A stretch of 17,790 nt of DNA from Flavobacteriales bacterium UBA2426. GTDB lineage: Bacteria; Bacteroidota; Bacteroidia; Flavobacteriales_F; PHOS-HE28. Shown here one piece after another: positions 5,891 to 17,790 of the stretch. Positions within the stretch are counted from its first letter, which is position 1; every line of letters starts with the position of its first letter. The stretch lies in assembly GCA_002342985.1 (NCBI GenBank), contig DDRC01000222.1:17805-35594 (forward strand), written 5' to 3'. The translations under genes were made by a program, and so were the position numbers. Below the pieces are notes generated by a model. That model saw only the letters and a list, made by a program, of their open reading frames with translations, ran no database searches and had not been told where the DNA came from.

Positions 5891-6964
5891 TCAGGCCATG
5901 CCCACCCGGCGCAGGTGCGCGAGGTGCGAGCGCAATGCGCTCCGCATGGTGGGGAATTCGCGGTACTCGATGCCGAATTCGGCGCACACCTGGCGCAGGC
6001 GGACGCTCAGCGCAGGATAGTGCACATGGCTGATCCGCGGGAAGAGGTGGTGCTCGATCTGGAAGTTGAGGCCCCCGAAGAGCCAGTTCCACACCCTGTT
6101 GCGCGTGGCGAAATTGGCGGTGGTCTCCACCTGGTGCACCGCCCACTCCGCCTCGATGCGGTGCCCGTCCCCCTCGGGGTGCACGAACTCCGCATGCTCC
6201 ACCACGTGGGCGAGCTGGAAGACCACGCTGATGACGATGCCGGCGACGAAGACCATGACGCCATAGCCGGCGAGCACGGGCAGCACCCCGACCTGCCACA
6301 TGGGGAGGACCAGGAACAGCCCGATGTAGAAGACCTTGGAGGCCCAGAAGACGATGTGGTCCTTGGCCTTCATGGGGCGCAGCGGCGTGCCGTCGGCCAC
6401 CTTGCCGCTGAAGTACTTGCGCAGGTCGTTGTAGAAGATCCAGAAGAGGTAGGTGGTGCCGTAGAGCAGCAGGCTGTACAGATGCTGGAACCGGTGGAAC
6501 CAGTAGCGCTTCTGGCCGGGGTGCACCCGGATCCACGGCTTGATGTCGATGTCATCGTCCATCCCCTCCACATTGGTGAAGGTGTGGTGGTTCTCGTTGT
6601 GCTTGAGCTTCCACAGGTAGGCATTGCCGCCGAGGAAGTTGAGGCTGTGCGCCATCAGCTCGTTCACCCACTTGCGCCGGCTGTAGCTGCCGTGTGCGCC
6701 ATCGTGCATCACGTTGAAGCCGATGCTGGCCACCACGAGCCCCATGAGCGCGCAGAGGCCGAGCGCCAGCCACGGGGAGGCCGGGGTGAAGAACACGAGC
6801 ACCACATACAGGGCGGCCAGTGCCGCCCCCAGGATGCCGGTCTTCAGGTACAGCCTGTAGTCGCCGGTCTTGCTGATGTTGTTCTCCTTGAAGTAGGCCT
6901 CGGTGACTTCCCGGAGGCGTTGGAAGAAGACCGGAGCGGTCCTCGCGAATGTCGTCTGTGCCAT
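5891..6964 (-). CDS. Front-end-type membrane fatty-acid desaturase
   Basis: A 357-residue inner-membrane di-iron enzyme that introduces a cis double bond into an acyl chain. All three histidine boxes are intact: HDGAH at 87-91, HNENHH at 122-127 and QIEHH at 302-306. Gln in place of the first His of the last box is the hallmark of front-end (delta-5/delta-6-type) desaturases. Hydrophobic segments lie near residues 43-60, 65-83, 165-185 and 215-260, the usual two-pair topology. There is no fused cytochrome b5 domain, so electrons must come from a separate ferredoxin or cytochrome. Whether the substrate is an acyl-lipid or acyl-CoA, and the regiochemistry, cannot be told. It is transcribed alone from a perfect -7 box 8 bases before the ATG, divergent from the exosortase operon. 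Confidence 0.93.
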   Translation of the reverse strand: MAQTTFARTAPVFFQRLREVTEAYFKENNISKTGDYRLYLKTGILGAALAALYVVLVFFTPASPWLALGLCALMGLVVASIGFNVMHDGAHGSYSRRKWVNELMAHSLNFLGGNAYLWKLKHNENHHTFTNVEGMDDDIDIKPWIRVHPGQKRYWFHRFQHLYSLLLYGTTYLFWIFYNDLRKYFSGKVADGTPLRPMKAKDHIVFWASKVFYIGLFLVLPMWQVGVLPVLAGYGVMVFVAGIVISVVFQLAHVVEHAEFVHPEGDGHRIEAEWAVHQVETTANFATRNRVWNWLFGGLNFQIEHHLFPRISHVHYPALSVRLRQVCAEFGIEYREFPTMRSALRSHLAHLRRVGMA

Positions 6965-6972
6965 GTTCGCTG

Positions 6973-6980
6973 CAAAGGTA
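6973..6980 (-). promoter_or_regulatory. -7 promoter box for the desaturase
   Basis: On the minus strand this reads TACCTTTG, a perfect TAnnTTTG match. Only 8 bases separate it from the ATG at 6964, which predicts a near-leaderless mRNA. Confidence 0.6.
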
Positions 6981-7081
6981 CCGCTCGGCGGATTCGGCCG
7001 CAGGGGGCCATTCGATCTTCTTCACGATCCGGTGGCAACCGCCACGTACCGATCCCGGGGCCGCCCCGTTGCATCCTTCGG

Positions 7082-7089
7082 TTCCTTTG
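7082..7089 (+). promoter_or_regulatory. Candidate -7 box for the exosortase K operon
   Basis: TTCCTTTG matches five of six fixed positions of TAnnTTTG and ends 5 bases before the ATG at 7095. The same box-to-ATG spacing is found for the genes starting at 11736 and 11824. Confidence 0.45.
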
Positions 7090-7094
7090 CATCC

Positions 7095-7607
7095 ATGCCG
7101 CGTGCCCGCCTCATCGCCCTGCTGCCCGCGGCAGCGCTGGTCCTGCTCGGGCTGGGCTTGAAATGGTGGGCGCGCACGGCGACGGCGGAGGACCTCGGCT
7201 TCCTGATCCGCCCGGCGGCCTGGCTGGTGGGTGCGCTGGCCGGCGATGCGCCCATGGCCACCGCCGCCGGCATGGAGCTCCGCGGCCTGGGCATCGTCAT
7301 CGACCGCTCGTGCGCGGGCATGGGCTTCCTGGTCACCGCACTCCTCAGCTTCGGGCTGATCGCCGCGCGCACCGCCGCCTCCGCCGGACCGGGCCGGTTG
7401 GCCGCCCTCGGGCTTGCGCTGGCGGCCTATCCGCTCACGGTGGCGGTCAATGCCGGCCGCATCCTCACCCTGTGCGGCTTCCAGGGCCTGGGTTTCGGGC
7501 TGCCGCCCCGGCTGCATGAGGGCATCGGCGCCGTCTTCTTCCTCACCGCACTGGTCATCGCCTCCGTCACCGTCAACCGCCTCCTCGTGCATCGGCCCCG
7601 TTCCTGA
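7095..7607 (+). CDS. xrtK: Exosortase K (XrtK)
   Basis: A 170-residue multi-pass inner-membrane transpeptidase-like protein. Exosortases cut sorting signals next to a C-terminal membrane helix, analogous to Gram-positive sortases but unrelated in sequence. The three catalytic positions are visible in the right order: Cys73 in DRSCAGMGF, Arg122 in VNAGRI and His141 in LHEGIG. Hydrophobic stretches at about 7-25, 35-50, 73-91, 102-118 and 143-161 place these residues near the periplasmic face of helices. At 170 residues it matches the compact K subtype, well below the 250-500 residues of other exosortases. The ATG at 7095 is preferred because earlier in-frame starts lie upstream of the -7 box. 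The MSEP-CTERM gene begins 3 bases after the stop, and in this subtype the neighbour is the dedicated target. Subtype assignment is from memory of family signatures plus context. Confidence 0.88.
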   Translation: MPRARLIALLPAAALVLLGLGLKWWARTATAEDLGFLIRPAAWLVGALAGDAPMATAAGMELRGLGIVIDRSCAGMGFLVTALLSFGLIAARTAASAGPGRLAALGLALAAYPLTVAVNAGRILTLCGFQGLGFGLPPRLHEGIGAVFFLTALVIASVTVNRLLVHRPRS

Positions 7608-7610
7608 ACC

Positions 7611-10424
7611 ATGCGCACAACGCTCCACCCCGCCGGCATCCTCCTGGCTCACACGCTGCCGGCCGCAGCGCTCGCGGTGCTCTATGCCGATGCCCTCGCC
7701 GTTGCCAGGCCCCTGCTGGATGCGGAGAGCCTGGAGGCGTGGCGCATGATGGCCTTCGGGCTGGCGGCACCCGCCCTTGCGGCCACGCTCTATGCCGCAT
7801 GGGCATGGTGGAGAGGAACCGCGGTGAGCGCCCTCTACGGTGCACTCGCCTTCGTTGCCTACGTGCCCTTGCTGCTCCTCTTCGGCGAGCGCATGGATCA
7901 CCTGTTCCCCAGCGAGGTTCCGCGCTGGATGCTGCCGGAGGATGCCCCGTTCTATGCCTTCCGCCTGCTCGCGGTGCCGCTGGTGCATGCGCTGTTCGTG
8001 CTGGTGCGGACCTCGCTCCCCGATGGCGCGGCGCAGCGCCCCTGGCGCGACCTGCTGCTGGCGGCCGCCATCCCCATCGCGGTCTTCCTCGGCTTCCAGC
8101 TCATTGCACCGTTCCGCGCCGCCGGGCCCTTCGAGGGCCATGCGTGGGCGGTGGTCGGCGCCGCGCTGGTGATCGGCTTCCTCTTCCTCCTGCTCCGCGG
8201 GGTGCTCGCGCTGGTGATGCGCCATGGCGATCGGCAGGGCCTCGCCATCGCGGTGCGCGCGCTGGTGGCGCTGGTGCTCCCCCTGCTCGGCCTTGCGCTC
8301 AACGAAGGGCGCTTCCCGGCCTTCTTCAGCCACATCCATCGGCCCTTCGGCGACCTCTCCCATCCGGGTTTCTGGCTGGCGGCCCTGCTGAATGCCGGGG
8401 CGGTGCTGTGGCCCTCGAGCACGCAGCCCGCGGTGCGGCTCATCCAATTCGCGCTGCGCAGCGCCGGCTTCAGCTACGTGCTCTACTTCTTCGTGCTCTT
8501 CCTCCCCCTGCTGCCGCTGAGCGTCCTGGCCATCCTCTTCTTCGGCATAGGGCTCCTGCTGCTGGCCCCGCTCCTGCTCTTCGCGGTGCAGGCACGGATG
8601 CTCATCGCCGATGCCCGCTTCCTGCTCGCGCACCATCAGCCGCTGAAGCTGGCCGCGGTGTTCGCCGCAGCCCTGGGCGCGCTGCCCGCCGTGGTCACGA
8701 TCGCCTTCCTTCAGCACCGCACGGCGCTGCATGGCGCGCTGCGCCACGTGTTCGAGGCCGACCCCTCCATGCCGGTGCGGCCCATCGATGCGGAACGCCT
8801 GGCCCACGTGCTGGACCGGGTGGAGGCCAACCGCTCGGGCGGCAGCTGGAGCCGCACCCACACGCCCTTCCTCACCCCGTTCTACAACCGCATCGTCCTC
8901 GGCAGCCTCACCCTGAGCGAAGAGCGGGCGGCCATCCTCCGCCGCGTGTTCCTCGACGCACGGCCTGCACCGCCGCCCACTCGCCGGACCCTGCCGTCCG
9001 GCGCCAATACCGCGCTGGCGGATGCGCGGGTGGAAAGCCGCTACGAGGAGGGGCAGCAGGCATGGCGCTCCTTGGTGCACCTCGGCATCCGCAATACCGG
9101 CGCGGGGCAGGAGGAATACACCACCGCCATCCGCCTGCCGGCCGGTGCCTGGGTGACCGGCCATTACCTGGTGATCGAGGGCGACACCGTGCCGGGCCTC
9201 CTGGCCGAGCGGCGCGCCGCGCAATGGGTGTACAACAGCATCGTGGACGTGCGCCGCGACCCCAGCCTGCTGCGGCATACGGCACCCGATTGCCTGGAAC
9301 TGCGCGTCTTCCCCGTGGAGGCCGGCCAGCGCCGGGCCTCCGGCATCGCGGTGCTGCACAAGGAGCCCATCGCGCTGAGCATCGGCGACACCTTGCTGGC
9401 GCTGGGCGACACCAGCCATGCCGCGCTGCCGGCGGATTCCGCCGCGCGTGCGCCGGGCGCCGCCTACCTCACGGCGGCGGCGAAGCGGGCCCTGCCCTTG
9501 GTGCAGCGCTCCCCGCACGTGCACCTGATCGTGGACGGCACCGAAGGCCAGCGCGGCCGCCGCCCCGAGGTGATCGAGCGGCTGCAGGCCTTCGTCCGTG
9601 CGGAGGGCCTTGACACCGCCCGCGTCACGCTGCACATCGCCGATGCCTACGGCACCAGCCTGCCCTATGAGAAGGCGGCGCTGCGCGCTTTCAGCCACCA
9701 CGCCGGGCGGGGCGGCTGCTTCACCGACCGCATCATCCGCCGCATCCTCGTGGGCGCCTGCCTGCAGCCGGGGGCCGAGGCGCCCGTGATCGTGCTGGCG
9801 CCGAGCGTGCCGCCGCACGACCCCGCCAGCCTGGGCGTGCTGCTGGAGGACCTGTCGGCCGCGGCCGCGTGCCTGCCCGAAGGGGACCGCTTCCACGTGC
9901 TGGGCGGGTCCGGTTACCTGAGCGAGCGCCGCTTGCACGATCCGCTCCGGCAGGTGAACACCGAGCCGACCGGCATCACCGTGCCGCCGGTGCACGCCTG
10001 GCCCGATGCGCAGCGCCCGCTCGGCTACCTCCCGGCATCGCCCGGCGGCGGCGTGCTGCTCGACCTGCCGCATGCGGGCCGGCTGAACGAGGCGCTACCC
10101 ACCCCGTGGCAGCAGGGGCTGTGGATGCACGCCCGCTGGCAGGCGCACCTGCTGCGCTCCGCACAGCTGCCCGTGGCGGCCCGCGAGCTGGTGGGCGCCA
10201 GTTTCCGTGCGCAGGTGCTGCTGCCCGTGACGGCCTGGATCTGCCTGGAGAACGAGGCGCAGCGCAATGCCCTGCTGAAGAAGCAGGAGGAGCTGCTGAA
10301 CGGCGCGGCCTCGCTCGATGCGGCGAACGAAGCGCTCACCCCCATGAGCGAGCCGGGTGCGGGCTGGATGCTCATCGCCTTGCTGGCAGCAGCAGCGGCG
10401 ATCCTGTTCCGACGGGCGCGGTAG
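7611..10424 (+). CDS. MSEP-CTERM protein, dedicated exosortase K target
   Basis: A 937-residue protein. Residues 9-367 hold about eleven hydrophobic segments (near 9-31, 46-67, 72-92, 116-134, 147-168, 178-204, 212-231, 252-268, 286-305, 306-327 and 346-367). A soluble region follows. Residues 470-585 look like a VIT domain (inter-alpha-trypsin type): LPAGAWVTGHYLVIEGDTV, an AERRAAQWVYNSIVDVRRDP helix and LELRVFPV. Residues 635-770 look like a vWA-type Rossmann fold with strands HVHLIVDG, VTLHIAD, APVIVLAP and FHVLGGSG. The motif before the sorting signal is LPVTAWICLENEA (871-883). The C-terminus has the tripartite signal: MSEP at 912-915, a helix at 917-933 and the basic tail RRAR. Cleavage and re-attachment by the adjacent exosortase are expected, but the product and its role are unknown. 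The ATG lies 3 bases after the exosortase stop. Confidence 0.88.
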   Translation: MRTTLHPAGILLAHTLPAAALAVLYADALAVARPLLDAESLEAWRMMAFGLAAPALAATLYAAWAWWRGTAVSALYGALAFVAYVPLLLLFGERMDHLFPSEVPRWMLPEDAPFYAFRLLAVPLVHALFVLVRTSLPDGAAQRPWRDLLLAAAIPIAVFLGFQLIAPFRAAGPFEGHAWAVVGAALVIGFLFLLLRGVLALVMRHGDRQGLAIAVRALVALVLPLLGLALNEGRFPAFFSHIHRPFGDLSHPGFWLAALLNAGAVLWPSSTQPAVRLIQFALRSAGFSYVLYFFVLFLPLLPLSVLAILFFGIGLLLLAPLLLFAVQARMLIADARFLLAHHQPLKLAAVFAAALGALPAVVTIAFLQHRTALHGALRHVFEADPSMPVRPIDAERLAHVLDRVEANRSGGSWSRTHTPFLTPFYNRIVLGSLTLSEERAAILRRVFLDARPAPPPTRRTLPSGANTALADARVESRYEEGQQAWRSLVHLGIRNTGAGQEEYTTAIRLPAGAWVTGHYLVIEGDTVPGLLAERRAAQWVYNSIVDVRRDPSLLRHTAPDCLELRVFPVEAGQRRASGIAVLHKEPIALSIGDTLLALGDTSHAALPADSAARAPGAAYLTAAAKRALPLVQRSPHVHLIVDGTEGQRGRRPEVIERLQAFVRAEGLDTARVTLHIADAYGTSLPYEKAALRAFSHHAGRGGCFTDRIIRRILVGACLQPGAEAPVIVLAPSVPPHDPASLGVLLEDLSAAAACLPEGDRFHVLGGSGYLSERRLHDPLRQVNTEPTGITVPPVHAWPDAQRPLGYLPASPGGGVLLDLPHAGRLNEALPTPWQQGLWMHARWQAHLLRSAQLPVAARELVGASFRAQVLLPVTAWICLENEAQRNALLKKQEELLNGAASLDAANEALTPMSEPGAGWMLIALLAAAAAILFRRAR

Positions 10425-10464
10425 CGCATGGATCTCCCCGCGCGCATGCCGGCCCGAGCCGCTC

Positions 10465-11736
10465 TCAACGAAGCGCGTTGTATGCGAAGCGCATGATGCA
10501 GCCCTTGGCCATGCCCTTCTTGTCGCCCTCTGAGGAAATGAGCAGGTCACCGTTGGTGAGGAAGGCGAGGCCCTCGGGCTTGAAGTAGACCTCGGCAGGC
10601 AGCGGATGCACGGCCGTCTCCGTGCCATCGAAGACGACCAGGAGGCGATCGCTCGCGGAGAGCACATAGAGGGCCTGCGTGATCGGGTGGATGCCCGCGG
10701 CGGAGGGCTGGAAGTGCAGCCCAGGACCCGCCATCGCGGGGCTGATGCGCGCAAGGGCCTGCGCCACACCCGCGCTGCTGAGGGTCCGCACCACCTGTAC
10801 GCGGCCATTGCGGCCGATGCGCTGCACCTGCCGGTCCTCTGCGGGACCGGTCACGGGCGCATCCTTGCTCACGATGTGCGCCTCGCCGGTGGCCGCATCG
10901 AGGTAGAGCCCCTCCTGGTTGAGCGATGCCAGCGCGGGCATCTGCTCGTGGATCACCGTCCGACCCCGACGATCCAGGTACACCAGATGGCCATCGCTGC
11001 GCAGCACAACGATGGTATCGCCGTGCACGGCGATGTCCTCGAAATCGCCCACGTCGGTGAAACGCAGCACATCGGTGATGCGCCCATCGCGCAGGTCGTA
11101 GGTGAACACGGCGCCCAGCTCATCCTGCACGCAGAGCACGCTACCATCGTCCGCCATCGCGATGCCCGAGACCTCGCGAAGCAGGTCCGGCAGTTCATGC
11201 ACGGTATCCGGGTCCAGCAGGTCATACCCGAGGCGGGGAAGGTCCTGTCCGCGCAGGCTGAACAAGCTCCACTTGTCCGAGACGAGCAGCGCTGTTGGCT
11301 TGTACTTGCGGCCCGTGGTGGTGAAGTAGAGGTTCTGCTCCACGCCATCCAGCATGATCTCCACCTTCAGGAAGCTGGTATCCACGGCGGCCACCAATCC
11401 GATCTCGTCCAAGGCCCATCCCGCATGGTGCTTGGCGATTGCCTTCTCGATCCGCTCCATCACGGCGGCATCGGGCCGCACCTCACGCTCCAGGTAGGTC
11501 ACCCGCCCGTTGCTGATCCCGGCCTCCACCAATTCGGCTCCGCAGAGGTATTCCACTTCCACCAGGCCGGACCCGGAGCGTTCGATGCTGAGGATATCGG
11601 CGGCGGGGCATTGCTCGCGCACCAGGTCGGCAATGCCGCGGTCATCGGTCACCTGGGCCATCGACGGCACCGAGAGGCCGAATGCCAGGACACAACCCGC
11701 GAGCAGCTGATGGAGGGGTGAGGGGATGGGATTCAT
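10465..11736 (-). CDS. Secreted protein: PepSY-like N-terminus plus SdiA-regulated-type propeller
   Basis: A 423-residue exported protein with a signal peptide ending near SMAQ (residue 28). Residues 30-155 resemble PepSY-like domains: a helix, strand pairs such as LVEVEYLCGAELVEAGI and LKVEIMLDGVEQNLYF, and a closing TTTGRKYKP turn. Residues 170-423 resemble the SdiA-regulated/YjiK beta-propeller family: REVSGIAMADDG, CVQDELG, YDLRDGRITDVLRF, DFEDIAVHGDTIVVLRSDG, and later FKPEGLAFLTNGDLLISSEG, a repeated 'evaluate the stored record' pattern. No catalytic residues can be assigned; binding or sensing is likelier than catalysis. I chose the ATG at 11736 for the signal peptide; a longer frame exists only as antisense of the response-regulator gene. 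It is divergent from the two-component system with 87 bases between the starts, so the system is a plausible regulator. Confidence 0.8.
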   Translation of the reverse strand: MNPIPSPLHQLLAGCVLAFGLSVPSMAQVTDDRGIADLVREQCPAADILSIERSGSGLVEVEYLCGAELVEAGISNGRVTYLEREVRPDAAVMERIEKAIAKHHAGWALDEIGLVAAVDTSFLKVEIMLDGVEQNLYFTTTGRKYKPTALLVSDKWSLFSLRGQDLPRLGYDLLDPDTVHELPDLLREVSGIAMADDGSVLCVQDELGAVFTYDLRDGRITDVLRFTDVGDFEDIAVHGDTIVVLRSDGHLVYLDRRGRTVIHEQMPALASLNQEGLYLDAATGEAHIVSKDAPVTGPAEDRQVQRIGRNGRVQVVRTLSSAGVAQALARISPAMAGPGLHFQPSAAGIHPITQALYVLSASDRLLVVFDGTETAVHPLPAEVYFKPEGLAFLTNGDLLISSEGDKKGMAKGCIMRFAYNALR

Positions 11737-11741
11737 GCACG

Positions 11742-11749
11742 CAAAGGCA
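11742..11749 (-). promoter_or_regulatory. Candidate -7 box for the PepSY/propeller gene
   Basis: On the minus strand this reads TGCCTTTG, five of six fixed positions of TAnnTTTG, ending 5 bases before the ATG at 11736. Confidence 0.45.
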
Positions 11750-11789
11750 TGATCCGAATCGGGGATCATTCTGGAATGCGAATCCCCAT

Positions 11790-11798
11790 TTCCTTCCC
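11790..11798 (+). promoter_or_regulatory. TTCCTTCCC element upstream of the response regulator
   Basis: TTCCTTCCC lies 12 bases before the -7 box at 11811-11818, at about the -33 position. The same 9-mer occurs at an almost identical distance before the candidate -7 box of the downstream PepSY gene. It is either an operator for the adjacent OmpR-family regulator (autoregulation) or an unusual -33 element. Confidence 0.4.
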
Positions 11799-11810
11799 AC
11801 ATCCGCCCGG

Positions 11811-11818
11811 TAGCTTTG
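11811..11818 (+). promoter_or_regulatory. -7 promoter box for the two-component operon
   Basis: TAGCTTTG is a perfect TAnnTTTG match, ending 5 bases before the ATG at 11824. It supports this start over the in-frame ATG at 11749, which lies upstream of the promoter. Confidence 0.65.
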
Positions 11819-11823
11819 ACTCC

Positions 11824-12501
11824 ATGAAGATCCTGGTGGTGGAGGATGAGCCCGGCCTGGCCGATGTGATCGCCCGGTCGCTGGAGCGCGAGCACCATGT
11901 GGTGGAGCTCGCTTGCGACCACCGGACCGCCCGGCTGAAGCTCGCCGACCACAGCTACGACCTGATCTTGCTGGACATCATGCTGCCCGGCGGCAGTGGC
12001 TTCGACCTGCTGCGCGGCATGAAGGCCGCTGGCGCAGGGGGCAACGTGATCATCATCTCCGCCAAGGACTCCCTCGATGACAAGCTCACCGGACTCGACC
12101 TCGGGGCGGACGACTACCTCACCAAGCCCTTCCACATTGCCGAGCTGAACGCCCGCGTGCGCTCCGTGCTGCGCCGGAAGGCCCTCGGTGGAAACAGCAC
12201 CATCAGCGCCGCCAACCTGCGCATGGACCCCGACGCGCGCAGCGTGCAGGTGGATGACGCCGAGCTCACCTTGAACCGCAAGGAGTTCGACACGCTGCTG
12301 CACCTGATGCTGAACAAGGACCGCCTCGTCTCCCGCGGCTCCCTGGCCGAACACGTGTGGGGCGACCATGCCGATGCCGGTGACGACCTCGACTTCATCT
12401 ACTCGCAGATCAAGAACCTGCGCAGGAAGCTGAAGCAGAGCGGCGCCGCGCTGGAGATCCAGGCGGTGTACGGCATCGGCTACAAACTGGTGGAGGCATG
12501 A
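11824..12501 (+). CDS. OmpR/PhoB-family response regulator
   Basis: A 225-residue cytoplasmic DNA-binding regulator. The receiver domain spans about 1-118: acidic pocket E7-D8, phospho-acceptor Asp51 in LILLDIMLPG, switch Ser79 in IIISAKD and Lys101 in LTKPF. A winged-helix domain spans about 128-225: RKEFDTLLHLMLN, LAEHVWG, and a C-terminal FIYSQIKNLRRKL recognition helix followed by the IQAVYGIGYKL wing. All phosphorylation residues are present, so it should be a canonical phospho-switch. The histidine kinase ATG overlaps its stop as ATGA, so the two are co-translated. Likely targets are its own promoter and the two flanking PepSY-type genes, inferred from position and the shared TTCCTTCCC motif. 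Confidence 0.95.
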   Translation: MKILVVEDEPGLADVIARSLEREHHVVELACDHRTARLKLADHSYDLILLDIMLPGGSGFDLLRGMKAAGAGGNVIIISAKDSLDDKLTGLDLGADDYLTKPFHIAELNARVRSVLRRKALGGNSTISAANLRMDPDARSVQVDDAELTLNRKEFDTLLHLMLNKDRLVSRGSLAEHVWGDHADAGDDLDFIYSQIKNLRRKLKQSGAALEIQAVYGIGYKLVEA

Positions 12502-13754
12502 GGCTGCTGAACCGCTCGCTGCTGCACCTCTCCGTCGTGCTGCTGCTCGTGCTGGCGGCCTGGGCCGTGGCCTTCTTCTTCATCGTGCGCCATGCCGTGG
12601 TGGACAGCATAGACGAAGGGCTGGAGGACCAGGAGGAAATCATCCGCCACCGGCTGGAACAGGACAGCACCCTGCTGCGGATCCACGACCTCGGCCTCCA
12701 CGGCTTCGCCTTCGCGCCGGTGGCGCAGAAAGTGAAGACCAGCTACCGCGACACCGTGCTCTTCGTCCCCAGCGAGGGGAAGCAGGAGCCCGTGCGGCTG
12801 CTCACCAAGTCCTTCCCCTACAACGGCGGCTATCAGCAATTGCGCATCTACACCAGCACGGTGGAGGAGGACGACCTGATCGAGGACATCCTTGCGGCGC
12901 TCATCGGCCTCTACATCACCCTGCTGCTCACCATCATCATCGTGAACAACGTGGTGCTGCGGCGCGTGTGGCGGCCCTTCCATGCGATCCTCGACCAGCT
13001 CAAGGGCTTCCGTCTCGGATCGGGCCGCTCGCTGGCCGATGTGCCCACGGAGGTCAGCGAGTTCAGGGAACTGAAGGCGGCCGCCAGCGCGCTCGTCCGC
13101 CACGCCATGGACACCTACGAGAACCAGCGGGCCTTCACCGAGAACGCAGCGCATGAGCTGCAGACGCCCTTGGCCATCGCCATCAACAGGCTGGAGCTCC
13201 TGGCCGAACGCCCTGCGAGCGAGGAGGAGCGCATGGCCGCCGTGGGCGAGGTGATCGCCTCCCTGGAGCGCTTGACGCGATTGAACAAGTCCCTGCTGCT
13301 GCTCGCCCGCATCGAGAACCGGCAATTTCCCGATGAACAGCCCATCTCCTTCACCGCGCTGCTGCGGGATGTGGCGGAGGAGTTCGCCGATCTAGCGGCG
13401 CATCGCCAGGTGGAACTGGGCGTGCAGGCCGATGGCGACCTGGTGCGCTCCATGGACCCCGGCCTCGCGCGCATCCTGCTCAACAACCTCGTGAAGAACG
13501 CCATCATGCACAATGTGCCAGGCGGCACGGTGAAGGCCCAGGTCGATGCCACGGGCCTCACCATCCGCAACACGGCTGCATCAGGGCCATTGGATCCCGC
13601 GCGCATCTTCGGCCGCTTCCACAAGGAGACCACCGCCGACGGAGGAACAGGCCTGGGGCTCGCCATCGCGAACGCCATCGCGCAACTGTACGGCCTGCGC
13701 ATCACCTACGCGTTCGATGACGGGCATGTGATGCGCCTGGAAGCCACGGCCTGA
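12498..13754 (+). CDS. Membrane sensor histidine kinase
   Basis: A 418-residue inner-membrane kinase partnering the overlapping response regulator. TM1 is near residues 8-31. A periplasmic sensor of about 100 residues (32-130) has no recognised fold and many charged residues. TM2 is near 131-154, then a short linker leads to the dimerisation domain. The H-box FTENAAHELQTPL carries the phospho-acceptor His219, the N-box NNLVKNAIMHN starts at Asn329, and the G-box GGTGLGLAI starts at Gly382. The region between N- and G-boxes is short and carries GRFHKE, an F-box-like stretch. A HAMP domain is at most minimal. The ligand is unknown; the flanking secreted PepSY-type proteins suggest an envelope signal. 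The stop is followed after 63 bases by the PepSY-like gene with its own candidate promoter. Confidence 0.95.
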   Translation: MRLLNRSLLHLSVVLLLVLAAWAVAFFFIVRHAVVDSIDEGLEDQEEIIRHRLEQDSTLLRIHDLGLHGFAFAPVAQKVKTSYRDTVLFVPSEGKQEPVRLLTKSFPYNGGYQQLRIYTSTVEEDDLIEDILAALIGLYITLLLTIIIVNNVVLRRVWRPFHAILDQLKGFRLGSGRSLADVPTEVSEFRELKAAASALVRHAMDTYENQRAFTENAAHELQTPLAIAINRLELLAERPASEEERMAAVGEVIASLERLTRLNKSLLLLARIENRQFPDEQPISFTALLRDVAEEFADLAAHRQVELGVQADGDLVRSMDPGLARILLNNLVKNAIMHNVPGGTVKAQVDATGLTIRNTAASGPLDPARIFGRFHKETTADGGTGLGLAIANAIAQLYGLRITYAFDDGHVMRLEATA

Positions 13755-14423: not shown

Positions 14424-14933
14424 TCACGGCAGCGGGAACCGCATCTCCGTCAACCCGAGCAGCGCGAAGTGCTCCTGCAATTCAGCGGAGCGCTCACCGC
14501 CGCGCGCGGCATGGTGCAGCAACGAGAGCCCGTGCGGCCCCTTTGCGCGCAAGAGATGCGGGAACGCTGCAAGCTGCGACTTCACCACGGCGGTTTGCCC
14601 CAGCATGGTGAGCACGAAGATGTTGGGCCGGGCACCGCGCGCCAGCAGGAACTCCGCCACCTCGCGGCTGCCCACATGGCCGGCGGCTTCCAAGGCGGTC
14701 TCGAAGTCGCCGCCGCCCCAGTCGTAGCACGCGTTCAGCAACCCGGGCTGCTCGTCGAGCATGCGCTTCACGGCATCGAACTCCCCATGGCCCACGCGCA
14801 CGAACTCCTTCACCAGCTCGTCCGGCAAGCGCGGGGGCTTGTCGTTGCCGGCGAGGTTCTGGGCGTGCAGGGGTAGCGCCCCCACGAGCGGCAAGCCGAG
14901 GGCGGTAGTGGCGAGGAAGTGCCTTCGATCCAT
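14424..14933 (-). CDS. Exported ankyrin-repeat protein with Tat-like signal
   Basis: A 169-residue protein. The N-terminus MDRRHFLATTALGLPL has adjacent arginines followed by a hydrophobic core and cleavage near LHA at about residue 24, which resembles a twin-arginine signal (RRxFL). The mature part carries two to three ankyrin-type repeats: VRVGHGEFDAVKRMLDEQPG, TALEAAGHVGSREVAEFLLARGARPN and a last SLLHHAARGG unit. Ankyrin repeats mediate protein binding, and the partner is unknown. The ATG lies 10 bases after the stop of the ABC permease gene on the same strand, so both are probably one transcript. Ankyrin proteins are more often cytoplasmic, so a periplasmic one coupled to a permease is noteworthy. 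It converges with the PepSY-like gene across about 135 bases in which I saw no strong terminator. Confidence 0.82.
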   Translation of the reverse strand: MDRRHFLATTALGLPLVGALPLHAQNLAGNDKPPRLPDELVKEFVRVGHGEFDAVKRMLDEQPGLLNACYDWGGGDFETALEAAGHVGSREVAEFLLARGARPNIFVLTMLGQTAVVKSQLAAFPHLLRAKGPHGLSLLHHAARGGERSAELQEHFALLGLTEMRFPLP

Positions 14934-14943
14934 GTTCGTTCGG

Positions 14944-17346
14944 TTACTCGTGCCGCAAGGCCTTCACCGGATCCGTCTGCGCCGCCCTTATCGCCCGGAA
15001 GCTCACCGTGAAGGATGCGATGAGCAGCACCACCAGTCCCGCACCGAGGAACACCAGCGGCTCGATGTGCGTGCGGAAGGCGAAGTTCTCCAGCCAGCGG
15101 CCCACGCCGAACCACGCGAGCGGCACCGCCACCAGCGCACCCACGAGCACCAGCAGGAGGAAATCGCGGGTGACCTCCCAGGTGATGCGCAGCGTGTCGG
15201 CGCCCATCACCTTGCGGATGCCGATCTCGCGCGTGCGCTTCTCGGCCGTCCAGCTGGCGAGCGCGAAGAGGCCAAGGCAGGCGATGAAGACCGCGAGCAG
15301 GGAGAAGATGCCGACGAGCTGCGCCAGGCGGCCCTGCGCCTCGTACTGCATGTTGAGCTGATCGTCGAGGAACTGGTACTCGAAGGGGAAGTTGGTGGTG
15401 CGCGCGTTCCATTCCTTGCGCGCGGCCTCGATCACGGGCCTGGGGTCGCCGCCCTCGGTGCGGATGTAGATGTACCGGAGCCACTGCGTAATGTCATTGG
15501 TCATGTCGAACACGAATGGGGCGACGGCCTTGAAGAGCGGATCGAAGGCGAAGTCCTTCGCCACGCCGATCACGCGCTCCTCGCCATGCGGCGTGTCCAT
15601 GCGCTCGCCGATGGCCTTGGCGGGATCATCGGGGTACAGCTGCCGGGCGAAGGTCTCGTTGATCACCACGCTCAGGGAATCATCGCCGGGGAAGTCGCGG
15701 CTGAACCAGCGACCGGCGAGCAGCTCGATGTCCATGGCCCGCTGGAACTCGGGGTTCACGTAGAGCGCGGGCAGGTAGGTCCACTTGCCCTGCTCCATGG
15801 TGCCCCAGTTGAACTCGTGGGTGTTGTGCTTCTTGCCGAGGATGTCGTTGGCCCAGCTCACGGCCTTCACCCCGCTGATCTTCTTCAGCTCGGGGTAGAC
15901 CGCCAGGTAGACATCCGCCATGGGCGCGCGCACGGGGATGAGCACCACCTGCTCCTTGGTGAATCCGAGGTCCACGGTGCGCAGGTGGTCGTGCTGGCGC
16001 TTCACGAAGACGGTGCCGATGATGAGCACCAGCGCGATGGCGAACTGCACCACCACCAGGGCTTTCCGCAGCGCCTGCCCGCGCGAGGTGCCGCCGCTGT
16101 TCCCCTTCAGCACCACCGCCGGCTGGAAGCTGCTGAGGAAGAAGGCCGGGTAGATGCCGCTGAGCAGGCCGAGCACCACCGCGAGGCCGAGCACGCCGGG
16201 CACCAGCATCGTCGGCAGCGGGATCATCTCACCCGCCAGCTCATTGAAGGCCGGCATCAGCAGCTTGATCAGCAGCAGGGCGATCAGCGCAGCGAGCATG
16301 CTCATGAGCACGCTCTCCAGCAGGAACTGGGCGATGAGCTGGCCGCGCGCCGCCCCCGCCGCTTTGCGCACGCCCACCTCGCGGGCCCGGTACGCGCTGC
16401 GCGCCGTGGCCAGGTTCATGAAGTTCACGGCGGCCAGCACCAGGATGAAGAAGCCGATGGCCCAGAGGATGTTCACGCTGCCCTTGTCGCCGTTCTGCCG
16501 CATCTCGAAGTCGAGCTTGCTGGTGAGGTGGATGTCCGCCAGCGGCTGCAGCTCGTGGCCGATCTGGTCCTTGAGGAAGTCGGGGTAGTATTTCTGGATG
16601 AAGGCCGGAAAGACGCGCTCCGCCTCCGCTTCGGTCACGCCCTCCTTCAGCCGCACGTAGGTCCAGCACGGGTTCCACACCCAATTGTTGCGCTCGATCT
16701 TCTTCCAGTACTGCAGGATGGTGTAGATGCTCACCAGCCCCTCGAAGCGGATGTGCGAGTTGCGCGGAAGCTCGCCCAGCACGCCCGTCACCTGCACATC
16801 CATGGCGTTGTCCCACTTCATCATCCGGCCCATGGGGTCGGCATCGCCGAAGTACTTCTTCGCCAGCTCCTGGCTGAGCACGATGCTGCCGGGCTTGGTG
16901 AGCGCCGTCCTCGGATCGCCCTGCACGAGCGGATAACCGAAGAGCTCGAACACGGTGCTGTCCACCAGGTACAGCCCGCTCTCGGTGAACATGCGGTCGG
17001 TGCTGAGGCTGTCGCCCACCTTCAGCGTGTGCTGCGGGTCCTGGAAATCGAACCAGCGGCAGTAGCGTTCCACCAGCTCCGGATGGTCGGCGTAGAGCGT
17101 GGGCCCCAGCCCGAAGACCATGCTGCTGCTGTGCTCGCCCTGCCCCTCCATCTCGATCTTGCCCACCACGCGGTACACGCGCTCATGATCGGGCACGAAA
17201 CGGTCGAAGCTGCGCTGGTACTGCACGTAGAGCCCGATGAGCACGAAGCATGCGATGCCCGTGGCCAGGCCCAGCAGGTTGATGAGCGCGTAGCGCTTCT
17301 GCTTCCAGAGGTTGCGGAAGCCGGTGAGGAGGAGGTTCTGCAGCAT
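14944..17346 (-). CDS. FtsX/MacB-type ABC transporter permease
   Basis: An 800-residue inner-membrane permease. TM1 is near residues 13-36. A large periplasmic domain of MacB_PCD type follows, then four TM segments near 290-312, 342-365, 379-403 and 429-449. A second periplasmic domain and three C-terminal TM segments near 676-698, 729-750 and 761-784 come next. The FtsX-type sequences REVGVRKAAGA and REIGIRKVMGA mark both halves as duplicated FtsX units, and the end DPVKALRHE is typical. This is the Bacteroidota 800-residue class. It has no ATPase domain, and no ATPase gene is in view, so the partner is elsewhere. Family members act in efflux, lipoprotein or peptide handling; the substrate is unknown. 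The ATG at 17346 gives the canonical MLQNLLLTGFRNL start; in-frame codons upstream (to 17562) run through the palindrome-bearing intergenic region and are unlikely. Confidence 0.93.
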   Translation of the reverse strand: MLQNLLLTGFRNLWKQKRYALINLLGLATGIACFVLIGLYVQYQRSFDRFVPDHERVYRVVGKIEMEGQGEHSSSMVFGLGPTLYADHPELVERYCRWFDFQDPQHTLKVGDSLSTDRMFTESGLYLVDSTVFELFGYPLVQGDPRTALTKPGSIVLSQELAKKYFGDADPMGRMMKWDNAMDVQVTGVLGELPRNSHIRFEGLVSIYTILQYWKKIERNNWVWNPCWTYVRLKEGVTEAEAERVFPAFIQKYYPDFLKDQIGHELQPLADIHLTSKLDFEMRQNGDKGSVNILWAIGFFILVLAAVNFMNLATARSAYRAREVGVRKAAGAARGQLIAQFLLESVLMSMLAALIALLLIKLLMPAFNELAGEMIPLPTMLVPGVLGLAVVLGLLSGIYPAFFLSSFQPAVVLKGNSGGTSRGQALRKALVVVQFAIALVLIIGTVFVKRQHDHLRTVDLGFTKEQVVLIPVRAPMADVYLAVYPELKKISGVKAVSWANDILGKKHNTHEFNWGTMEQGKWTYLPALYVNPEFQRAMDIELLAGRWFSRDFPGDDSLSVVINETFARQLYPDDPAKAIGERMDTPHGEERVIGVAKDFAFDPLFKAVAPFVFDMTNDITQWLRYIYIRTEGGDPRPVIEAARKEWNARTTNFPFEYQFLDDQLNMQYEAQGRLAQLVGIFSLLAVFIACLGLFALASWTAEKRTREIGIRKVMGADTLRITWEVTRDFLLLVLVGALVAVPLAWFGVGRWLENFAFRTHIEPLVFLGAGLVVLLIASFTVSFRAIRAAQTDPVKALRHE

Positions 17347-17432
17347 GGGTGCGCCGAGGGGTGGACGCAAGGTGCTCCGACCTGCCCGCCGATGGGCGGA
17401 TTCCGTGCGCTGGCGTTGCGTAGGTGACGGAT

Positions 17433-17445
17433 GGTTGGCCCAACC
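17433..17445. promoter_or_regulatory. Palindrome GGTTGGCCCAACC, copy 1
   Basis: A 13-base inverted repeat (GGTTGG-C-CCAACC) in the divergent region. Its outer arms GGTTG/CAACC match copy 2 at 17539-17551, with centres 106 bases apart. It is a candidate operator for a dimeric regulator; a chance pair is possible. Confidence 0.4.
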
Positions 17446-17538
17446 TTTCAACCTACCGTCCCCAGCGCATACGCTGCTCTGCTGGTGCATGCCGCTCCTC
17501 ACGCGGCCGTGGTGCAGCGGCACACCCACGCTCACCTT

Positions 17539-17551
17539 GGTTGAAACAACC
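17539..17551. promoter_or_regulatory. Palindrome GGTTGAAACAACC, copy 2
   Basis: The arms GGTTG/CAACC are identical to copy 1, with AAA in place of GCC in the centre. It ends 5 bases before the ATG at 17557, where an operator or start-site-overlapping element would act. A weak -7-like sequence TCACCTTG immediately precedes and touches it. Confidence 0.4.
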
Positions 17552-17556
17552 TGCTC

Positions 17557-17790
17557 ATGCAACGCACCCTACGCTTCATGCCCCGCATCGCCATCGCGCT
17601 CGTGTGCGCCATCGTCTTCCGCGGCCTGCCGCGCGCGCAAGGGCTCTCCACCGCCGAGCTGCTCGCCCCCGTGGGGAGCAGCTTCCACCACTACCAGATC
17701 GCAGACCTCTTCCCGTGGGACACCCTGCAAGGCCCGGGCGTGCTGTGGGATTATGCGTGGACCGCGGTCGACAGCACCGACGATGTGACC
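17557..17790 (+). CDS. Secreted protein, N-terminal part only
   Basis: The frame opens at the ATG 17557 and stays open to the right edge (78 codons). The N-terminus has two arginines, the hydrophobic core IAIALVCAIVF and a likely cleavage after PRAQ near residue 28; an alternative ATG at 17578 would also give a signal peptide. The mature part contains SSFHHYQIADLFPWDTLQGPGVLWDYAW. This resembles the start of secreted Bacteroidota proteins that open with a 'GPG..W.' beta-strand segment and end in a type IX secretion signal. The C-terminus is outside the window, so that is a guess. It is divergent from the ABC permease gene and sits directly behind palindrome copy 2. No function is assigned. 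Confidence 0.7.
   Translation, partial: MQRTLRFMPRIAIALVCAIVFRGLPRAQGLSTAELLAPVGSSFHHYQIADLFPWDTLQGPGVLWDYAWTAVDSTDDVT

Follow-up and report, generated by a model that had tools for sequence, protein, structure and literature searches.

Does an exosortase encoded beside a single tail-bearing protein serve that protein alone, and what happens to the tail where the enzyme is absent? This question was raised by a two-gene locus in a 17,790-nt stretch of DNA (referred to as the window) from Flavobacteriales bacterium UBA2426 (GCA_002342985.1, contig DDRC01000222.1, positions 17,805-35,594 of the forward strand), in which xrtK, encoding exosortase K, precedes the gene of a large protein ending in an MSEP motif, a membrane helix, and basic residues (MSEP-CTERM protein; its portion other than the tail is referred to as the body). 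Sequence comparisons and structure models suggested that the two form a dedicated tail-processing unit, one enzyme acting on one adjacent substrate, with a probability of roughly 0.75. The features of the pair, in window coordinates, were as follows:

7095..7607, + strand: xrtK, exosortase K, 170 aa (TIGR04287, 60.9 bits, cut-off 55; TIGR04178, 25.6 bits, cut-off 23)
7311..7313, + strand: Cys73 codon, proposed nucleophile (Cys in 47/47 enzymes beside MxEP bodies and 16/16 others aligned)
7458..7460, + strand: Arg122 codon (47/47 beside MxEP bodies, 15/16 others, one gap)
7515..7517, + strand: His141 codon (47/47 beside MxEP bodies, 15/16 others, one gap)
7611..10424, + strand: MSEP-CTERM protein, 937 aa, putative sole substrate (TIGR04286, 601 bits, cut-off 150)
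7611..8975, + strand: N-terminal membrane domain, aa 1-455, about 11 long helices (model maa9c083c2859, predicted local distance difference test score 90.1)
9009..9404, + strand: VIT domain, about aa 467-598 (PF08487, 28.3 bits, cut-off 26.5, aa 492-575; strands in the model)
9510..10301, + strand: von Willebrand A (VWA)-like domain, about aa 634-897, with a degenerate metal site (Asp642, Thr644)
10344..10355, + strand: MSEP motif, aa 912-915, within a linker modelled at low confidence (model and sequence; Pro915 in 75/75 aligned rows)
10359..10418, + strand: C-terminal membrane helix, aa 917-936, ahead of the basic end (DSSP on the model)

The exosortase K locus and its partner

The first-pass annotation of this DNA had described a 170-residue exosortase with Cys73, Arg122, and His141, three bases upstream of a 937-residue protein with an MSEP-helix-basic tail, and had proposed HMM searches of both. 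These searches returned both families above the curated cut-offs, rather than the missing exosortase hit that it had named as grounds for rejection, and the domain-level match strengths of both proteins, judged by the model scores, were far beyond chance. XrtK also passed TIGR04178, the general exosortase/archaeosortase model, and the Cys, Arg, and His of the catalytic set, which we take to be the catalytic residues of the exosortase family, were conserved among 63 aligned enzymes of the XrtK kind. The stop codon of xrtK (TGA, 7605-7607) and the ATG of the body (7611) left a three-base gap; because the reading frame of xrtK continues open 5' of the ATG at 7095, this start is putative. The MSEP motif, membrane helix, and basic end, the membership features of TIGR04286, were all present in the partner.

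In the genus sample (45 genomes, the same as those of the order sample), both models passed in the same eight genomes, always with adjacent genes (8/8), and one more genome held a sub-cut-off exosortase match (26.8 bits). Among the 395 genomes of the class sample, the MSEP-CTERM model passed in 10 and the exosortase K model in nine, with adjacency in 9/9; the odd genome (G226) encoded a full body and no XrtK, and its tail, with VPIDG instead of MSEP, ended in VPIDGEVWVLLAGG and basic residues. A search with the tail model found one strong MSEP tail in the window's own genome (E 3.6e-7; the next best match, E 0.87, did not cover the motif), which is 83.6% complete, so that a second MSEP protein could have been missed; a genome of the same species (G001, 99% complete) likewise had a single tail below E 0.001. 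Among 17 other XrtK genomes, one tail at E 0.001 or better was found in 16 and none in G054, and the best extra match was E 0.007 (in G009). These distributions bear out the dedicated one-enzyme/one-substrate pairing that had been proposed, and the many unrelated MSEP tails that would have spoken against it were not found in the genome. The pairing is the catalogued NCBIfam pair and not a discovery of this window.

It had also been claimed that the pair stands alone, with no polysaccharide cluster. Locally this was correct: no polysaccharide-synthesis family was detected by a Pfam scan of 13 further open reading frames (ORFs), a part of those in the window, the rest of the genome not having been searched for such genes, and the locus was on this basis not assigned to the exopolysaccharide-associated PEP-CTERM/EpsH system. 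Genome-wide the claim did not hold. Contig C160 of the same genome encodes exosortase X (XrtX; NF046081, 173.2 bits, cut-off 170), near it a 71-aa PID-CTERM protein (30.6 bits, cut-off 26), and a neighbour matching the XrtX-associated model below its cut-off (26.9 versus 75 bits). The XrtK/MSEP pair is therefore alone in its neighbourhood, not in its genome. All three genes lie at 1016-2308 of locus L050 (G000:C160), the third perhaps encoding an XrtX-associated membrane protein.

Tail type, enzyme, and apparent replacement among relatives

A protein search yielded 64 homologues of the body, with 53 MxEP, four PID-type, one LAEP, one TSEP, one PEP, two PAP-type, and two unrecognisable tails. 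A GTDB genome scan gave 80 loci (the best 80 of 94), with 47 MxEP, 12 PID, nine PxP, four PEP, two LDEP, one TSEP, and five unusable tails. An XrtK-like gene adjoined 45/47 MxEP bodies; the two exceptions were L064, with only 58 bases upstream, and L114, in which the enzyme precedes the first half of a split body, and with the latter counted, adjacency was found in 46/46 loci having upstream DNA. The corresponding fractions were 0/12 for PID, 8/9 for PxP, 2/2 for LDEP, 1/1 for TSEP, and 1/4 for PEP tails. Fisher's test of tail versus adjacency gave p 1.8e-11 (44/45 versus 0/12, loci with at least 500 bases upstream), a value that ignores kinship and was not used as proof.

XrtK was found in none of the 13 genomes with PID-type bodies (12 Hymenobacter and G226), and XrtX was above the cut-off in 12 of them (14 proteins). 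Six MSEP-type Hymenobacter genomes possessed XrtK in 6/6 and XrtX in 3/6 cases (G437-G439). PID-CTERM matches numbered 0 in the three MSEP-type Hymenobacter genomes without XrtX, 1-3 in the three with it, and 1-10 in the 13 PID-type genomes: the counts follow the presence of XrtX. The body itself was above the PID-CTERM cut-off in 9/13 PID-type genomes, and a match to the PID-CTERM model at E 1 or better was obtained for 12/13 PID-type bodies versus 0/30 with MSEP and other tails. Tail type tracks the enzyme across relatives.

When the tail columns were removed, the PID-type bodies formed one group nested within the Hymenobacter MSEP bodies (78-row tree; Shimodaira-Hasegawa-like approximate likelihood ratio test, SH-aLRT, 91). 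This tree leaves out L091, L110, L114, L120, L123, L129, and L131, among them one counterexample (L129, see below). An aconitase gene and a subtilase gene flanked both the MSEP and PID forms. Between H. elongatus (XrtK and MSEP) and H. nitidus (PID), three neighbour genes were 96, 84, and 82 percent identical and the body 49 percent, and the H. elongatus body shared 68 percent identity with that of H. norwichensis. In approximately unbiased (AU) tests, the neighbour data rejected monophyly of the PID loci (p-AU 1.1e-5), and the body data rejected the grouping of H. elongatus with its chromosomal neighbours (p-AU 2.7e-120). The neighbour and body trees are thus in conflict, and the enzyme and MSEP body therefore probably travel together; judged from these sequences, the enzyme-plus-MSEP body and the PID body seem to have substituted for each other at a single site. 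The body tree offered only two independent contrasts, and both agreed.

A shared upstream element accompanied both forms. In 17/18 Hymenobacter loci, the 400 bases preceding the unit's first gene contained the palindrome CTTTG-N5-CAAAG (before xrtK in 5/6 and before the body in 12/12), with about 0.07 expected from base shuffles; two more copies occurred elsewhere in the Hymenobacter loci. The Bacteroidetes promoter box reads TAnnTTTG.

Two further observations concern the family at large. Bodies split into two frames were seen at L114 (9436-12753) and L110 (10001-12866), as a natural fission or a sequencing error. In Bacillota (L108, L111, L105, and L097, including the isolate Geosporobacter subterraneus), the tail of this body was of the LDEP, MDEP, or MVEP type, and a gene resembling that of exosortase K stood next to it.

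Proposed processing of the tail and alternative explanations

The body consists of an N-terminal membrane domain, whose model (aa 1-455) matched no PDB entry at an E-value of 0.001 or lower, and an ectodomain with a VIT domain followed by a VWA fold (PF08487 above the cut-off; PDB 6fpy as the best structural match). The metal-site motif of VWA-type domains is DxSxS; here Asp642 and Thr644 were kept, the third position, variable across the family, was Gly, and the site was not intact. TIGR03788 (marine proteobacterial sortase target, another one-enzyme/one-target VIT family) weakly matched 6/30 bodies (best E 2e-4).

On this architecture, XrtK, a small membrane cysteine enzyme, would act on the MSEP-helix-basic tail of the adjacent-gene product, most likely cutting at or near MSEP; the C-terminus of the ectodomain would be freed and then released or joined to an acceptor. 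We infer this cleavage, the membrane topology, and any partner joined to the new C-terminus from sequences and models. Because about 11 N-terminal helices would already hold the ectodomain, a cut in the tail would not decide membrane retention, and with the body having its own membrane domain, processing probably frees or conjugates the C-terminus.

The cut might be hydrolysis alone, that is, a regulated release or activation of the ectodomain with nothing attached to the new C-terminus. The substrate's own membrane domain makes an attached anchor seem unnecessary, and no acceptor-synthesis gene lay consistently beside the pair in the compared loci; archaeosortase A of Haloferax, on the other hand, attaches a lipid at the processed C-terminus (PMC7157517), so that conjugation is possible for the superfamily, and we regard hydrolysis alone as a serious if somewhat unlikely version of events. 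A more radical proposal, in which the tail does no more than anchor the protein in the membrane and the substrates of XrtK are other proteins, the two genes being only inherited together, draws on the fact that adjacency by itself cannot prove an enzyme-substrate relation and on there being just the two contrasts on the body tree. It was given very little credence, given that the tail type changes at the same chromosomal site where XrtK is absent, that the tag of the changed tail matches another exosortase, present in 12 of the 13 genomes, and that the own genome yielded no other MSEP-type tail. Neutral decay of the tail after loss of xrtK, with no real hand-over to exosortase X, could be read into the 4/13 PID-type bodies that stayed below the curated cut-off for PID-CTERM when the genomes were searched. 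The 9/13 above it, the 12/13 matching at E 1 or better, the retained helix and basic end of PID-type tails on a conserved body (mean column identity 60%), and XrtX in all but one of these genomes make such decay quite improbable.

Several points weigh against a dedicated unit whose tail is matched to its enzyme. The window XrtK is a weak, divergent family member at 60.9 bits; in the genus and class searches, all other above-cut-off XrtKs scored 80-157 bits, except that of the same-species genome (60.7). L129 combined a PEP tail with an adjacent weak exosortase (36 bits), L127 had a PAP-type tail and no adjacent exosortase, and L123, whose tail is cut off, had no exosortase in 1.5 kb upstream. 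No exosortase was found in the PID genome G430, a metagenome bin, despite eight PID-CTERM matches, and of the four sub-cut-off PID-type bodies, one scored 23.1 bits and three were absent from the matches at E 0.001. A kinship-aware sign test on the two independent contrasts gave p 0.5. Outside Hymenobacter, the palindrome immediately preceded the unit in 4/38 MxEP loci; none of the six genus loci scanned had it there, and the window lacked it throughout. Finally, the support for processing consists of sequences and models.

Gene neighbourhoods offered a lead on function. In eight other Bacteroidota loci, where an HTH_34 winged-helix gene is paired with a gene for a membrane protein, palindromes occurred near the start of the latter, and further ones near CreD, DUF4153, or xrtK genes. 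The arrangement in Marinifilum (L063) was as follows:

6681-12808: membrane protein, HTH_34, CreD, diacylglycerol kinase, xrtK, MSEP body, in this order

The HTH_34 gene with its membrane protein, CreD, and DUF4153 were also found beside xrtK-MSEP in L060, L062, L066, L072, L080, L089, and L095, and diacylglycerol kinase in two of the eight loci, L063 included in this count of eight. Such neighbours were present in 13 of the 80 loci, every one on the strand of the body. The element and its neighbours point to envelope stress or membrane upkeep as a lead, and this is not a result about the window, where no HTH_34/CreD-type neighbours were present. Downstream of the pair, the window contained a two-component system (11749-13754), a small ankyrin-repeat protein (14427-14933), and a MacB/FtsX-type permease (14947-17562). 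A wider hypothesis would make the body a bacterial equivalent, held in the membrane, of inter-alpha-inhibitor heavy chains: the C-terminus of its VIT-VWA ectodomain must be passed to an acceptor, either a lipid or a glycan of the surface, in a step that evolution retains with varying enzymes, XrtK in a dedicated operon, XrtX in Hymenobacter, and an EpsH type in some Lentisphaerae, with the unit in a CTTTG-N5-CAAAG envelope regulon shared in several Bacteroidota with the winged-helix regulator, CreD, and DUF4153; as a whole, we consider it unlikely.

One-enzyme/one-substrate exosortase systems have so far been assigned by bioinformatics. The Hymenobacter loci present a natural swap, with the same body, site, and upstream element but either XrtK and MSEP, or no XrtK and a PID-type tail in XrtX-holding genomes. 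Of these species, H. sediminis (L085) carries XrtK only, H. nitidus (L118) XrtX only, and H. elongatus (L057) both. The exchange of tail together with enzyme makes the proposed XrtK pairing directly testable, and the matched species allow an assay of the part of the tail on which enzyme specificity depends and of the fate of the processed C-terminus. A further suggestion from the swap is that the VIT-VWA body has a lasting need for C-terminal processing, which would then not be a property of one enzyme.

Comparison with known systems

The window pair is the NCBIfam pair TIGR04287/TIGR04286, both adjacent and above the curated cut-offs; it differs in its low-scoring enzyme, and the model text, as far as displayed, does not include tail-switched loci. 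In the mostly open-access literature searched, no paper was found that names exosortase K or MSEP-CTERM, treats PID-CTERM or exosortase X in this sense, or links an exosortase with a VIT domain or with Hymenobacter, which agrees with the first-pass statement that the biological role is undescribed. The exosortase N/XrtN-system VIT protein pair (TIGR04476/TIGR04477) likewise combines a VIT substrate, a C-terminal tag, and a neighbouring exosortase, and the window protein matched TIGR04477 across its VIT part. The scores of the window pair, 54.1 and 21.9 bits, were far below the respective cut-offs of 250 and 200, and XrtN-type tails read VPEPHEW; several class loci have both weak matches side by side.

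The modelled ectodomain resembles inter-alpha-inhibitor heavy chain 1 (PDB 6fpy and 6fpz), with an identity of about 10% and a root-mean-square deviation of about 10 A over the whole match, while unrelated VWA proteins scored equally high against the VWA part alone. Inter-alpha-inhibitor heavy chains are not known to have the membrane domain or the MSEP tail. Heavy chains bear a C-terminal ester to chondroitin sulphate (PMC3795262); this ester and the lipid attachment by archaeosortase A can serve as analogies for a possible XrtK mechanism. Among Bacteroidota exosortases, the closest phenotype located was the reduced surface colonisation of Flavobacterium johnsoniae xrtF mutants (PMC10936215).

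Tail exchange in VIT-type proteins has been prior art since 2011, when Haft and Varghese (PMC3237569) showed one VIT/von Willebrand family whose members end in GlyGly-CTERM, PEP-CTERM, or, next to a sortase dedicated to them, LPXTG tails. Unlike the window body, that family is not stated, in the available sections, to carry an N-terminal membrane domain, and sections 12 and 15 of the paper contain neither XrtK, MSEP, XrtX, and PID tails nor replacement at the locus level. The tag on the body in 13 genomes is that of the exosortase X/PID-CTERM system (NF046081/NF046080), which the window's genome also carries as a second system. In contrast to XrtK with its one dedicated partner, XrtX has as many as 10 detected PID-CTERM proteins to serve in a single genome among those 13. 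Within the literature searched, and to that extent, the exchange from exosortase K to X, the replacement pattern, and the shared upstream element are new.

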